Source of the DNA: Methanococcoides orientis
GTDB taxonomy: Archaea; Halobacteriota; Methanosarcinia; Methanosarcinales; Methanosarcinaceae
Length of the DNA: 64,000 bases
Direction of reading: 5' to 3'
Assembly (NCBI RefSeq): GCF_021184045.1
Contig: NZ_CP073710.1
Span: 744,001 to 808,000 of the forward strand
Shown: one piece after another, positions 3,887 through 18,011 of the stretch
Layout: each line of letters opens with the position of its first letter
Numbering within the stretch: position 1 is the first letter of the stretch
Position numbers and translations under genes: made by a program
Notes under the pieces: model-generated
Database searches by the model: none
The model's input: the letters and a program-made list of their open reading frames with translations, nothing else
What the model was told of the DNA's origin: nothing

Positions 3887-4636
3887 ATGAACCCAGACCA
3901 CAGTAATCGTGGTAATGGAGCCATAACTACAGCATTATTATTGGCAGCCGGAAAGGGCAGCCGTCTTTATCCTCTGACACGCGACACACCGAAATGCCTC
4001 ACAATGGTTCATGAGGCGTCTATTCTTGAACGACTTGTCATTAATTTGAAAAAGCAAGGCTTCAAACGTCTTGTTGTAGTCACAGGATACCAGGAAAAAT
4101 GTATTCGTGATTTTTTAGAAACGCGGGCTTGTGGAATGGAGATCGACTTTATTATAAGCCCCCTTTACGCGACCACCAATAACATATATTCACTCTGGAT
4201 GGCACGCAATATCATCAATGAGCCGTTTTTGCTTGTTGAAAGTGATCTTGTTTTTGATGGGTCTCTTCTGGATGAAATGTGCTCTCCTGACAGAATTGCC
4301 GTAGCACGCATGCAACCGTGGATGAATGGTTCCACTGTCACAGTCAATCGATCCCAAAATGTTAAGAAATTCCAAAATGGTATTGCTGGGACTTTTGATG
4401 AGGCCAGATACAAGACTGTTAATATCTACAGTTTTTCACTATCTTCATGGCAGCGTATTACAGAAAGACTTGACCAGTACATTTCAGCCGGCAAAGTAAA
4501 TGACTATTATGAAACCGTATTTGCTGAAATGGTAGCTGATGGCAGTCTCGACCTTAAAACAGTCTCTTTTGACAGCAAGCGATGGTATGAGATCGATACA
4601 GTTGCAGACCTGGCAAAGGCTGAGACTCTATTTTAG
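3887..4636 (+). CDS. Sugar-phosphate/choline-phosphate-type nucleotidyltransferase
   Basis: 249 aa. The N-terminal Rossmann-like NTP_transferase fold shows the signature LLLAAGKGSRLYPLT...PKCL (residues 17-38), then GFKRLVVVTGY and LVESDLVF with the metal-binding Asp. It ends WYEIDTVADLAKAETLF, the usual C-terminus of LicC-type (CTP:phosphocholine/phosphoethanolamine) cytidylyltransferases. With a PLP enzyme and a CDP-alcohol phosphotransferase downstream, it most likely makes a CDP-activated amino-alcohol head group. It is the only intact gene here that ends in TAG, and its frame continues for 82 codons after that TAG (see 4637-4885). Nucleotide specificity is inferred from context. Confidence 0.85.
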   Translation: MNPDHSNRGNGAITTALLLAAGKGSRLYPLTRDTPKCLTMVHEASILERLVINLKKQGFKRLVVVTGYQEKCIRDFLETRACGMEIDFIISPLYATTNNIYSLWMARNIINEPFLLVESDLVFDGSLLDEMCSPDRIAVARMQPWMNGSTVTVNRSQNVKKFQNGIAGTFDEARYKTVNIYSFSLSSWQRITERLDQYISAGKVNDYYETVFAEMVADGSLDLKTVSFDSKRWYEIDTVADLAKAETLF

Positions 4637-4885
4637 GCGGATAAATACGAAACAATAATTCCTTACGACACAAATCCACATACTTCTGGAAGACCAAGGC
4701 CGTTTTTCCAGCAATCAAAATGTGGGGTGAAGGTGAGGATTCCTCGTTCACTTTCAGGTTTAAAACCATTGCCTAAGCCCAGCTCTTTCAACCTGAAACC
4801 ACTTATTGAGGCTAACAAATTAAAAAATAAAGTATCACATCAAAAAAGTTCTATGGAGGGGATGCATGATGCAACAAAATTATGA
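4637..4885 (+). other. Open frame continuing past the TAG of the nucleotidyltransferase
   Basis: After the TAG at 4634-4636 the same frame runs 82 sense codons to TGA at 4883-4885, overlapping the start of the PLP gene by 20 nt. The encoded stretch is basic and Pro/Lys/Ser-rich (for example RPRPFFQQSKCGVKVRIPR) without a recognised domain. The DNA also holds an inverted repeat (TTTCAGGTT near 4752 with AACCTGAAA near 4790). It may be a pyrrolysine read-through extension or chance. The core protein looks complete without it. Confidence 0.3.
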
Positions 4886-5984
4886 GACTCAATCTGAAAA
4901 ATATGAATTTATTTCCGGACAGCATGGTGGTTACTATCGCCATGACTTTATTGATCATGCTTATCTTTATAATCTGTATTTCCCGCCAGAAGAAGTTTTT
5001 ACAAGTTTTAAAGATAAAATTCACGACCTTGTCCTTAACTACCCGATTGCACAGGATGCTCTTGACGATCTCATAGGTGATCTGATCGATCAGCCTGCTG
5101 AAAGGATCGTTGTAGGAAACGGTGCTGCCGAACTTATCAAGATCATATCCGGCCATATATCCAGCAAGTTGATCGTTCCAGTACCATCTTTTAATGAATA
5201 TGTGAATGCAGCATCAGTAGGCAAAGTAGTTGAATTTCCTCTTGAATTTCCATCTTTTCAATTGGATGTAGACAAGTTTGCTGATGAAGCGATCAAGGTT
5301 AAAGCAGATGTTGCTGTCGTGGTAACACCTAATAACCCAACATCGATCCTGGTTCCAAAGTCTGATCTAATATCTCTTGCACAAAAACTTGCAGACCATG
5401 ACTGTATGCTGATCATCGATGAATCATTCATAGATTTTGCACATGATCAGGATAAGGCAACTCTGGAACATGAACTCGAACGTTATCCGAACATAGCCAT
5501 CATTAAAAGCATGAGCAAAGCCTATGGTATCTGTGGTATCAGGATTGGTTATCTGCTAACTGCAAATTTAGCATTTGCTGAATCTGTAAGAAAAGGTGTA
5601 CATATATGGAACATTAACGGATTTGCCGAAGAGTTTCTGCGAATATTGCCTGATTACAGACAGGATTTTGTCGAAAGCTGTAAACAGGTACGGATCGACA
5701 GGTATAATCTGTACAAAAGCCTGTGTGCTATCCCGGGAATGACTGTTTATAAACCCGATGCGAACTTTATTTTCTGCCGCCTCCCTGATCATGCACAAAG
5801 TGGTCCTGAAGTCACACGGAAGTTGTTCATTGAGCATAATATGTACATAAAACACTGTAAGGACAAGACCCTACCTGATTCTGACCGTTATGTTCGTATC
5901 GCCAGCCGTACTGAAGCAGAAAATTGCAAATTAGTTGAAGCATTAGTAGATGTTATTGACTCCAACAAAGTGGAAGTATTCTGA
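4866..5984 (+). CDS. Fold-type I PLP enzyme (HisC/CobD-like), possible amino-acid-phosphate decarboxylase or aminotransferase
   Basis: 372 aa. Class I/II aminotransferase fold: VVGNGAAELIKII (residues 80-92), VVVTPNNPTS (about 155), LIIDESFIDF (about 183) and the Schiff-base lysine in SMSKAYG (Lys218), followed by GIRIGY. HisC-like PLP enzymes linked to LicC-type cytidylyltransferases include the phosphonate transaminases and the more recently described L-serine-phosphate decarboxylases that make ethanolamine phosphate, the latter similar to CobD. With a CDP-alcohol phosphotransferase next door, generation of an aminoalcohol phosphate is the best fit. A strong GGAGGGG site precedes the ATG. 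Exact reaction unknown. Confidence 0.85.
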   Translation: MMQQNYETQSEKYEFISGQHGGYYRHDFIDHAYLYNLYFPPEEVFTSFKDKIHDLVLNYPIAQDALDDLIGDLIDQPAERIVVGNGAAELIKIISGHISSKLIVPVPSFNEYVNAASVGKVVEFPLEFPSFQLDVDKFADEAIKVKADVAVVVTPNNPTSILVPKSDLISLAQKLADHDCMLIIDESFIDFAHDQDKATLEHELERYPNIAIIKSMSKAYGICGIRIGYLLTANLAFAESVRKGVHIWNINGFAEEFLRILPDYRQDFVESCKQVRIDRYNLYKSLCAIPGMTVYKPDANFIFCRLPDHAQSGPEVTRKLFIEHNMYIKHCKDKTLPDSDRYVRIASRTEAENCKLVEALVDVIDSNKVEVF

Positions 5985-6634
5985 TGAACGATTCTGATCA
6001 TCAGCAATCGCATCAGACAGGAATGCTTGCTTTCGCCCGGGACCTTCCAAACATCTGTTCTCTTGCAGGATTGTTATGTGCGGTCCTTAGCATATACTAT
6101 GCCATATTAGGCAATTTACCTATCGCGATAATTGGAATGATCTGGGCTGTTGTTTTTGACTGGGGTGATGGTCTCATTGCTCGCAGGATGAAGGGACGAA
6201 CTGATGAATATCGAGCTTTCGGGGGACAGCTTGACTCATTGATAGATATTGTAAGTTTTGGAATTTGCCCCGCTGTATTTCTCTTGAGCTATGGGGATTT
6301 CAGTCCATGGTTCTTGCCTGGAGCATTCGTGATCGTCGCTGTCAGTGCAATACGGCTGAGTTACTTCAATGTTTTCGGCCTGGTCGATGATTCGACATAC
6401 ATGGGATTGGCACTTGACAACAATGTCATTATTCTTGCTTTTCTCTTCCTGTTTGACAGTTTTTTTAGCCATCCGATCTTTTCAGTCGCTATATATTCAT
6501 TGTTTATGTTTATGGCTGTCTTTAATTTAGCACCAATCCGAACGCCCAAGTTTTCTGGCAGGTGGTTTTCTGTTCTCCTGGTTTATGCCCTGGTGTTAAC
6601 AGTCATCTATAGCTGGATGCTGTGGAGCAAGTAA
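5984..6634 (+). CDS. CDP-alcohol phosphatidyltransferase family membrane enzyme
   Basis: 216 aa with about six membrane segments. The catalytic CDP-alcohol phosphotransferase signature D-x2-D-G-x2-A-R-x(n)-G-x3-D-x3-D is complete: D59, D62-G63, A66-R67, G80, D84 and D88 (DWGDGLIAR ... GGQLDSLID). Such enzymes transfer a phospho-head group from CDP onto a lipid alcohol, or exchange CMP of a CDP-lipid for an alcohol. Here it would join the CDP-activated product of the two upstream enzymes to archaeol or another lipid. Its start overlaps the stop of the PLP gene by one base (TGATG), so the two are coupled. Substrate is inferred. Confidence 0.88.
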   Translation: MNDSDHQQSHQTGMLAFARDLPNICSLAGLLCAVLSIYYAILGNLPIAIIGMIWAVVFDWGDGLIARRMKGRTDEYRAFGGQLDSLIDIVSFGICPAVFLLSYGDFSPWFLPGAFVIVAVSAIRLSYFNVFGLVDDSTYMGLALDNNVIILAFLFLFDSFFSHPIFSVAIYSLFMFMAVFNLAPIRTPKFSGRWFSVLLVYALVLTVIYSWMLWSK

Positions 6635-6674
6635 CAATAAAATGGGAACTATTTGTATAAAAAAGGAAGATTTA

Positions 6675-7946
6675 ATGTATGAATATCAATCACTCAGAAA
6701 ATGTATCTCAAACAATGACAATGAGCTAATAATTTACGGGGCAGATCGTTTTTCACAGTTCCCACGCCGTGATGCATCCGTTAATTCAAAATGTGACCGA
6801 GTGCTTCCGGTAGCACGTCCTGATGATGTGGTAGTTCTACGCGGAAAGCTGGACTCTGAGTATCATAAATGGCTGCGTTCTCATGGTCTGGGTTCGGATC
6901 ATATTGTAGAATATAATGCTTATTCAGGAGAAATGTCGCTCTCAGAACTTATCGTTAATGATCCTGAACCAGTTAAAAAGATCATAAGGCAGTTCGGGAA
7001 AAAACCTGTATATGTGCCATGGTTTTCAGGTCGTATGGAAACTGAAGCTGCAAAAGTTCTTGGAGCTGATCTTTTTGGAGCAACTGAAACTGCAACACTA
7101 AAGTATAATGATAAGTCAGCTTTCAAGACCGTATGTCAAGAATTAGGGATAGCTGTTGTTGAAGGTACTTCATTTGAAATGCATCCTGAAGACAATGAAA
7201 ATTGTACGGATATGGAAAACATCATTAACGAATATCTGTCAACCTGCGAAACTGTTATTATTCGCGGTACTTTGGGTGAAGCCGGCATGTCGTTATACAA
7301 AACGAAAGGCAATGGTATTTCTGAAATATATCACGAAATTGCAGTTAGCGGTGAACGATCTGTTATCATTGAACCTTTTCTGAATGTTTCTTCTTCTCCG
7401 AATGATCAGTGGGCGATCAGCAGAGATGAAAATATAAATTCACTTGGCATGCGAGATCAAATATGCGAAAGGGGGATGGTACACGTTGGCACTCTCAAAG
7501 AAGCAAATGCATCAGCAGATACTTTAAATTGCATTACAAAAACATCTGCAAAAATTGTAACTAATATGGCTGAATTCGGATATCGGGGTGTAGTCGGTAT
7601 AGATTATATTGTATCGGATGATGGTATATTTCCTGTTGAAAATAATGCTCGTTTTAACGGTTCCTCTTATGTGAGCATGATCGTAGATAACATTGAAGAA
7701 TTATTATCTCCCATTCCATTCTGGAAATTTATAAAGATCAGGACAGAAGCATGCTCATTTCTTGAGCTAACTGAACGTATTGAGCCAGTACTTTATGATG
7801 GCAAAAAATTAAATTCTGTATTTCCTTTTAGCTGCGATACATTGCCGTTATCCGGAGATTTTGCTGTTATACTCTTAGCCGGGAATATGGATGAGATCTT
7901 TAATATCGAAGAATCATTGAAAGAAATGGTGTTCAAAAGTTTTTAA
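6675..7946 (+). CDS. ATP-grasp carboxylate-amine ligase-like protein
   Basis: 423 aa from this ATG, which has an AAGGAAG site 7 nt upstream; an in-frame ATG at 6642 without such a site would add 11 residues. The C-terminal two thirds carry an ATP-grasp fold: KYNDKSAFKTVCQELGI (lid entry), VIIRGTLGEAGMSLYKT (glycine-rich loop), ERSVIIEPFL, and the metal-binding EVxxR-like motif in FPVENNARFNGSSY near residue 330. ATP-grasp ligases join a carboxylate to an amine or thiol through an acyl phosphate. Following the CDP-head-group genes it may add an amino acid or other acid to the lipid head group. The product is unknown. Confidence 0.75.
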   Translation: MYEYQSLRKCISNNDNELIIYGADRFSQFPRRDASVNSKCDRVLPVARPDDVVVLRGKLDSEYHKWLRSHGLGSDHIVEYNAYSGEMSLSELIVNDPEPVKKIIRQFGKKPVYVPWFSGRMETEAAKVLGADLFGATETATLKYNDKSAFKTVCQELGIAVVEGTSFEMHPEDNENCTDMENIINEYLSTCETVIIRGTLGEAGMSLYKTKGNGISEIYHEIAVSGERSVIIEPFLNVSSSPNDQWAISRDENINSLGMRDQICERGMVHVGTLKEANASADTLNCITKTSAKIVTNMAEFGYRGVVGIDYIVSDDGIFPVENNARFNGSSYVSMIVDNIEELLSPIPFWKFIKIRTEACSFLELTERIEPVLYDGKKLNSVFPFSCDTLPLSGDFAVILLAGNMDEIFNIEESLKEMVFKSF

Positions 7947-17606: not shown

Positions 17607-18011
17607 ATGGTCAAACTCACAGAAGATATGAAGGAAGCATTTTCAAAGGTAAGAATTTTCCCATTTGCAACAGCATCAAAGGCAGGAATGCCAAATGTCA
17701 TCCCCATTGGCATGTGCCAGTTAGTCGATGATGAAACTATCTGGGTCACGGACAACTATTTCCTGAAGACCCGGGAGAACCTGGATGAGAATCCTGTAGC
17801 ATCCATCTTTGTCTGGGGTCCTGAGGTAGGCGCCTGCTTCCAGATAAAGGGAGATGTCGAGGTCAAGACAAGCGGTGAAGACTATGACAAAGCCTATGCT
17901 GATGCAAAGGCAAAGGGCGACAAGTTCCCTGCAAAAGCTCTGATGGTCATGAAGATCACAGAGGTCTTCGAATGTATCTCCGGAGATAATGCTGGAAAGA
18001 AGTTGATCTGA
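17607..18011 (+). CDS. Pyridoxamine 5'-phosphate oxidase-like FMN-binding protein
   Basis: 134 aa. Split-barrel flavin-binding fold of the PNPOx-like family: RIFPFATASKAGMPNVIPIG, then TIWVTDNYFLKTRENLDENP and SIFVWGPEVGACFQIKGDVEV. Many short archaeal members bind FMN or F420 as dimers and reduce or simply carry flavin; their role is often unknown. Although it follows pdxST, the 285-nt gap and its own GGTGAT site suggest a separate unit, and this short form is not the PLP-forming PdxH. The gap 17322-17606 holds T-runs but no gene. Confidence 0.85.
   Translation: MVKLTEDMKEAFSKVRIFPFATASKAGMPNVIPIGMCQLVDDETIWVTDNYFLKTRENLDENPVASIFVWGPEVGACFQIKGDVEVKTSGEDYDKAYADAKAKGDKFPAKALMVMKITEVFECISGDNAGKKLI

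Follow-up and report, generated by a model that had tools for sequence, protein, structure and literature searches.

The cytidylyltransferase gene at 3887–4636 (+) of the window, i.e., the whole 64,000-nucleotide stretch of Methanococcoides orientis DNA analysed in this study, carries an in-frame TAG directly behind its catalytic domain, and it is highly probable from comparison of the genomes that this UAG is a sense codon read as pyrrolysine and that the enzyme has 332 residues. The possible pyrrolysine read-through raised in the original prediction is supported by the presence of TAG in all nine genomes of the genus that carry the gene, by the constraint on the 27 codons that follow it, and by the pyl genes of this genome; the inserted residue itself is presumably pyrrolysine.

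Architecture of the gene and its neighbourhood

The catalytic domain (3887–4633 (+), 249 residues) is that of a LicC/PntC-like CTP:phospho-alcohol cytidylyltransferase. It matches Pfam NTP_transferase (E = 7e-11) and LicC (1jyk; sequence E = 1.4e-15), which is also the top fold match, and PntC and the inositol-phosphate cytidylyltransferases are the next-closest relatives in both sequence and fold. The TAG occupies 4634–4636 (+), and the same frame then runs for 82 codons without a stop, comprising 27 codons (ADKYETIIPYDTNPHTSGRPRPFFQQS) at 4637–4717 (+) and a remaining 55 codons at 4718–4882 (+). The TGA at 4883–4885 (+), where translation of the 332-residue product presumably ends, falls 20 bases within the aminotransferase ORF starting at 4866; the originally predicted open extension to a TGA inside the next gene is thus present. 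The 47 ORFs of at least 120 amino acids in the window end in TGA (24), TAA (22), and TAG (1), the last being the nucleotidyltransferase, which had been singled out as the sole TAG-ended gene among those checked. The accompanying estimate that openness of this length would arise by chance in well under a few percent of cases is roughly right by composition (2.7% when only TAA and TGA are counted, 0.6% with all three stops), but it proves little alone: among the other 46 genes of the window, 2 have an equally long open frame after the stop, and at least 60 open codons follow the stop in 9–14% of TAA/TGA genes in 1.1 Mb of the genome. Because of those two window genes, openness by itself is weak evidence, and we rejected it as stand-alone proof of read-through.

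In the AlphaFold model, the catalytic domain is well modelled, and residues 257–332 have pLDDT values below 50. A folded tail domain was rejected on these values, although the alignment behind the model contained few sequences that cover the tail. Given this low pLDDT, our guess from the model is that the 27-residue segment may be a flexible docking or stabilising piece.

Downstream of the gene lie a CobD/HisC-like class I/II aminotransferase (4866–5984 (+); PF00155, E = 1.7e-33; TIGR01140 below the cut-off), which overlaps the tail by 20 bases, an archaetidylserine-synthase-like CDP-alcohol phosphatidyltransferase (5984–6634 (+); PF01066, E = 3.5e-12; NF038087 below the cut-off), and an ATP-grasp, amino-acid-ligase-like protein (6642–7946 (+); weak BesA/LdmS matches, PF02655 just under the cut-off) that is probably encoded in the same operon. 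From these assignments, it is plausible that the pathway would activate the head group of a polar lipid or of a surface polymer with CDP. The Methanosarcina-like genome G091 encodes a relative that is 37% identical to the nucleotidyltransferase (L044; G091:C1:1040659–1041393); the open frame around it spans 622 residues, which would fit a putative cytidylyltransferase-aminotransferase fusion like that of PntC.

Codon 250 and selection on the tail

The gene was found in 9 of 11 Methanococcoides genomes at 90–100% identity, and the region is nearly identical in M. seepicolus, M. vulcani, and metagenome-assembled genomes (MAGs) of the genus. Codon 250 is TAG in all nine; a TAA or TGA at this position, which the original prediction had named as a sign against read-through, was seen in none of them. 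Outside the genus, every homologue with a readable end encodes an amino acid there (Ser, Pro, Leu, or Ala); in the non-Methanococcoides relatives, the codon is mostly TCA or TCG (Ser), with TTG (Leu) in one and CCG (Pro) in ANME-3. Past this sense codon, Methanosarcinaceae relatives have a homologous tail of approximately 71–90 residues (SADKYETIIPY...), while bacterial homologues have Pro, Ser, or Ala at the position and mostly some 10–40 further residues of dissimilar sequence. The earlier remark that the protein ends as is usual for its family therefore holds only for the catalytic domain: all homologues outside Methanococcoides run on beyond the TAG position, most of them for approximately 10–90 residues. 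Since the sense codon and the homologous tail both occur outside the genus, the alignments indicate that the archaeal members of the family inherited the tail from their ancestor and that TAG is a derived state that replaced a sense codon; the change from TCG to TAG requires a single base.

The frame is intact throughout the tail in seven of the nine Methanococcoides genomes, and its first 27 codons are intact in all nine. In M. vulcani the frame is broken by a TAA at tail codon 28, and in one MAG by the loss of 1 nt near codon 33; both breaks sit just beyond these 27 codons. A Methanolobus homologue (L042, G067) combines a sense codon 250 with a frameshift a few codons on, so the tail is dispensable there. 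The losses in two of the nine Methanococcoides and in this Methanolobus count against the read-through.

A codon model fitted to the nine genomes on the catalytic-domain tree and its synonymous rates gave an omega of 0.18 for the catalytic domain. For tail codons 1–27, omega was 0.29 with the synonymous rate left free (likelihood ratio test statistic (LRT), 8.8) and 0.27 with the rate tied to that of the domain (LRT, 30.6), whereas codons 28–70 are neutral (omega, approximately 0.96; dS the same as in the domain). With 27 codons and 21 variable sites, the constrained region is small, and its limit was set after inspection of the data. The simulated null, however, scanned eight end points: the maximum LRT was 9.3 in the real data, a value attained in 0 of 240 neutral simulations, for which the 99th percentile was 7.5. 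The 27 codons contain no stops or gaps and share a mean identity of 91% with the window copy. In the control, i.e., the 27 post-stop codons of four comparable TAA/TGA neighbours, omega ranged from 0.77 to 2.58, and stops or gaps were present in all four. In a tree built jointly with ten relatives that have a sense codon, omega for codons 1–27 was 0.24 in Methanococcoides (LRT, 21.6 versus neutrality) against 0.63 in the relatives, and a test of equal omega in the two groups gave an LRT of 10.0; codons 28–48 were neutral in both. Selection over the whole 82-codon tail was accordingly rejected, and of the conserved frame and synonymous bias looked for across it, codons 1–27 retain both in all nine genomes, whereas codons 28–70 are neutral and the frame is lost in two. 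Since TAG is fixed in all nine genomes, the selection most simply acted with TAG present, which argues that the 27 codons are translated.

Other coding explanations of this signal were rejected. In a six-frame check, the one other frame with a similar omega was the mirror register on the other strand, and this register is interrupted by stops; a separate small gene after the TAG would have no start, as ATG, GTG, and TTG are absent from the first 27 codons. The codon usage of the tail is not gene-like (score, −3.1), which counts against the read-through, but the catalytic domain also scores low.

If the TAG were a plain terminator, a nonsense mutation would have truncated the enzyme in the ancestor of the genus, and the downstream frame would be a decaying relic. 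The completeness of the catalytic domain without the tail, the short tails of the bacterial homologues, and the neutral, twice-broken frame in codons 28–70 are in line with such a truncation. We nevertheless consider it improbable, because purifying selection on codons 1–27 continued after TAG was fixed and is stronger than in the sense-codon relatives, and because the genus hardly uses TAG as a terminator. Still less probable is that the 81 bases past the TAG are a non-coding nucleotide element, such as an RNA hairpin, a PYLIS-like signal, or an aminotransferase leader. A two-part hairpin is predicted 45–95 nt past the TAG in all nine Methanococcoides copies (window 4634–4734; L028–L035) and is missing in the sense-codon relatives, and its outer stem includes a single compensated pair. 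The folding energy of the hairpin, however, is no better than that of shuffled sequences (z = −0.3 to −0.7), and we accordingly make no claim for a PYLIS-like element. The changes in the 27 codons moreover cluster at third codon positions (2, 6, and 13 at positions 1, 2, and 3, respectively), and the synonymous rate is close to that of the gene body (scale of approximately 0.92), neither of which favours a nucleotide element. A PYLIS-type structure is not required for pyrrolysine insertion (PMC9499178).

TAG usage and the pyrrolysine machinery

In a sample of 1.10 Mb (44%) of the 2,494,162-base genome, the first stop of 832 ORFs with coding-like codon usage is TAA in 404, TGA in 416, and TAG in only 12. 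The median distance to the next TAA or TGA is 100 codons after TAG, compared with 12–13 codons after TAA or TGA, and at least 30 open codons follow all 12 TAGs versus 22–27% of the TAA/TGA stops (p = 4e-7). The extensions behind TAG also score as coding (+26.9, versus 0.6–3.1 after TAA or TGA). When TAG is read through, a Pfam match spans it in 9 of the 9 other TAG genes scanned: the biotin carboxylase C-terminal domain, fumarase/lyase, HATPase_c, CcmF_C, the FrhB C-terminus, ThiI, VWA, the HerA C-terminus, and an S-layer match below the cut-off. M. burtonii (G005, which we take to be strain DSM 6242) has TAG as the first stop in 6 of 312 genes; five of these have long extensions, and the sixth is an exception. 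The rarity of TAG as a first stop, the long coding-like extensions, and the domains that span TAG together indicate that, by these sequence criteria, TAG is a sense codon in Methanococcoides in all or nearly all cases. In G066, a Methanolobus genome whose codon 250 is a sense codon, TAG is the stop in 32 of 296 genes and the onward distances resemble those after TAA and TGA; judged by these distances, TAG is an ordinary terminator there.

The TAG genes of M. orientis include those for biotin carboxylase, fumarase, a histidine kinase, a CcmF-like protein, FrhB, ThiI, a VWA protein, and a HerA-like helicase, and in-frame TAG sites were recorded at positions 17686, 49960, 166518, 321859, 906677, 1199331, 1354245, and 1387896 of G000:C1 and at loci L171, L172, and L174 of M. 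burtonii. Annotation with translation table 11 would cut short the genes with in-frame TAG in both genomes (G000 and G005).

Of the pyl genes on which the read-through claim depended, pylS, tRNA-Pyl (anticodon CTA), and pylB are present, pylB with a match over the cut-off, and the start of pylC is seen downstream of pylB. Two mtmB copies in the genome carry the known in-frame TAG, and two more MtmB-family genes (L007 and L008) are without it. No obvious change was seen in the release factor; aRF1 of Methanococcoides keeps its NIKS motif.

That intact motif also fits an ambiguous UAG, for which release factor and tRNA-Pyl would compete, yielding a short (249-residue) and a long (332-residue) form in a ratio set by the supply of pyrrolysine. 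Release-factor competition has been proposed as a model of pyrrolysine insertion (PMC9499178), and with the catalytic domain complete before the TAG, the short form could work. We regard such dual use as a possible but clearly less likely reading, because TAG interrupts the domains of fumarase, biotin carboxylase, and ThiI, which would need efficient decoding, and because a TAA or TGA never closely follows TAG in the 12 sampled genes.

Under the preferred reading, in which UAG is a sense codon, a Ser codon (probably TCG) right after the catalytic domain would have changed to TAG in the ancestor of Methanococcoides, in a lineage in which TAG had nearly lost its role as a terminator and was decoded by tRNA-Pyl (CUA). 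PylRS would charge tRNA-Pyl, which would decode UAG 250 and place pyrrolysine at position 250, and ribosomes would proceed through the ancestral tail to the UGA at 4883–4885. The first 27 tail residues would have a selected role, possibly in docking or stabilising, and the remainder would drift. The predicted tryptic peptides are AETLFOADK, YETIIPYDTNPHTSGRPR, and PFFQQSK for this genome and AETLFOADK, YETIIPYETKPHISGR, and QFFQQSK for M. burtonii.

A further idea, which we think unlikely, is that the supply of pyrrolysine sets both the form of the enzyme and the arrival of ribosomes at the aminotransferase start and would in this way couple methylamine metabolism to a polar-lipid or cell-surface pathway; on this view, the tail would be more strongly constrained behind UAG because it gained a new function once it contained pyrrolysine.

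The pylB gene (G000:C1:2364128–2365420 (−); L106:6128–7420 (−)) seems itself to end in TAG, so TAG may still terminate somewhere in the genus. Among the relatives' copies (L218–L227 and L228–L257), the pylB stop is TAG in every Methanosarcina-like and g12 genome examined and in 11 of 11 from Methanococcoides, but it is TGA in the four Methanolobus genomes examined. The TAG end stands out in Methanococcoides, where TAG is otherwise scarce as a stop. Since the start codon of pylC is located approximately 1 base past this TAG, read-through in pylB could uncouple the translation of pylC, which would be a possible feedback on pyrrolysine synthesis.

Comparison with known systems

LicC and PntC are the closest solved relatives of the enzyme, and the pairing of a cytidylyltransferase with an aminotransferase is shared with PntC. 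Unlike in PntC, the two are encoded by separate genes here, and the aminotransferase is of the CobD/HisC-like class I/II type rather than class V.

Kivenson and co-workers (Science, 2025) reportedly described an archaeal 'Pyl code' in which all TAG codons are read as pyrrolysine. The near absence of terminal TAG in Methanococcoides and the occurrence of TAG within conserved domains resemble that code; the present case, which is read from sequence, differs in that pylB seems to be TAG-ended. An older view holds that UAG is ambiguous, with a nearby UAA or UGA as a backup (PMC9499178), and the pattern of TAG in Methanococcoides departs from it. A genus with a sense TAG beside a related genus with a stop TAG makes the loss of the stop meaning testable. 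Annotation with table 11 shortens the cytidylyltransferase and other Methanococcoides proteins, and the main text of a 2013 survey of candidate pyrrolysine genes does not include the nucleotidyltransferase.

Like MtmB, MtbB, and MttB of Methanosarcinaceae, the cytidylyltransferase has an in-frame UAG in a pyl-bearing genome, and both the frame and the amino acids are conserved beyond it; the enzyme is thus a candidate new case of a known phenomenon. The case dates the change from Ser to UAG to the root of the genus, with selection seen beyond the UAG. In contrast to these methyltransferases, the UAG lies where the catalytic domain gives way to the tail rather than at an active site, and pyrrolysine would replace the Ser, Pro, or Leu of the homologues.
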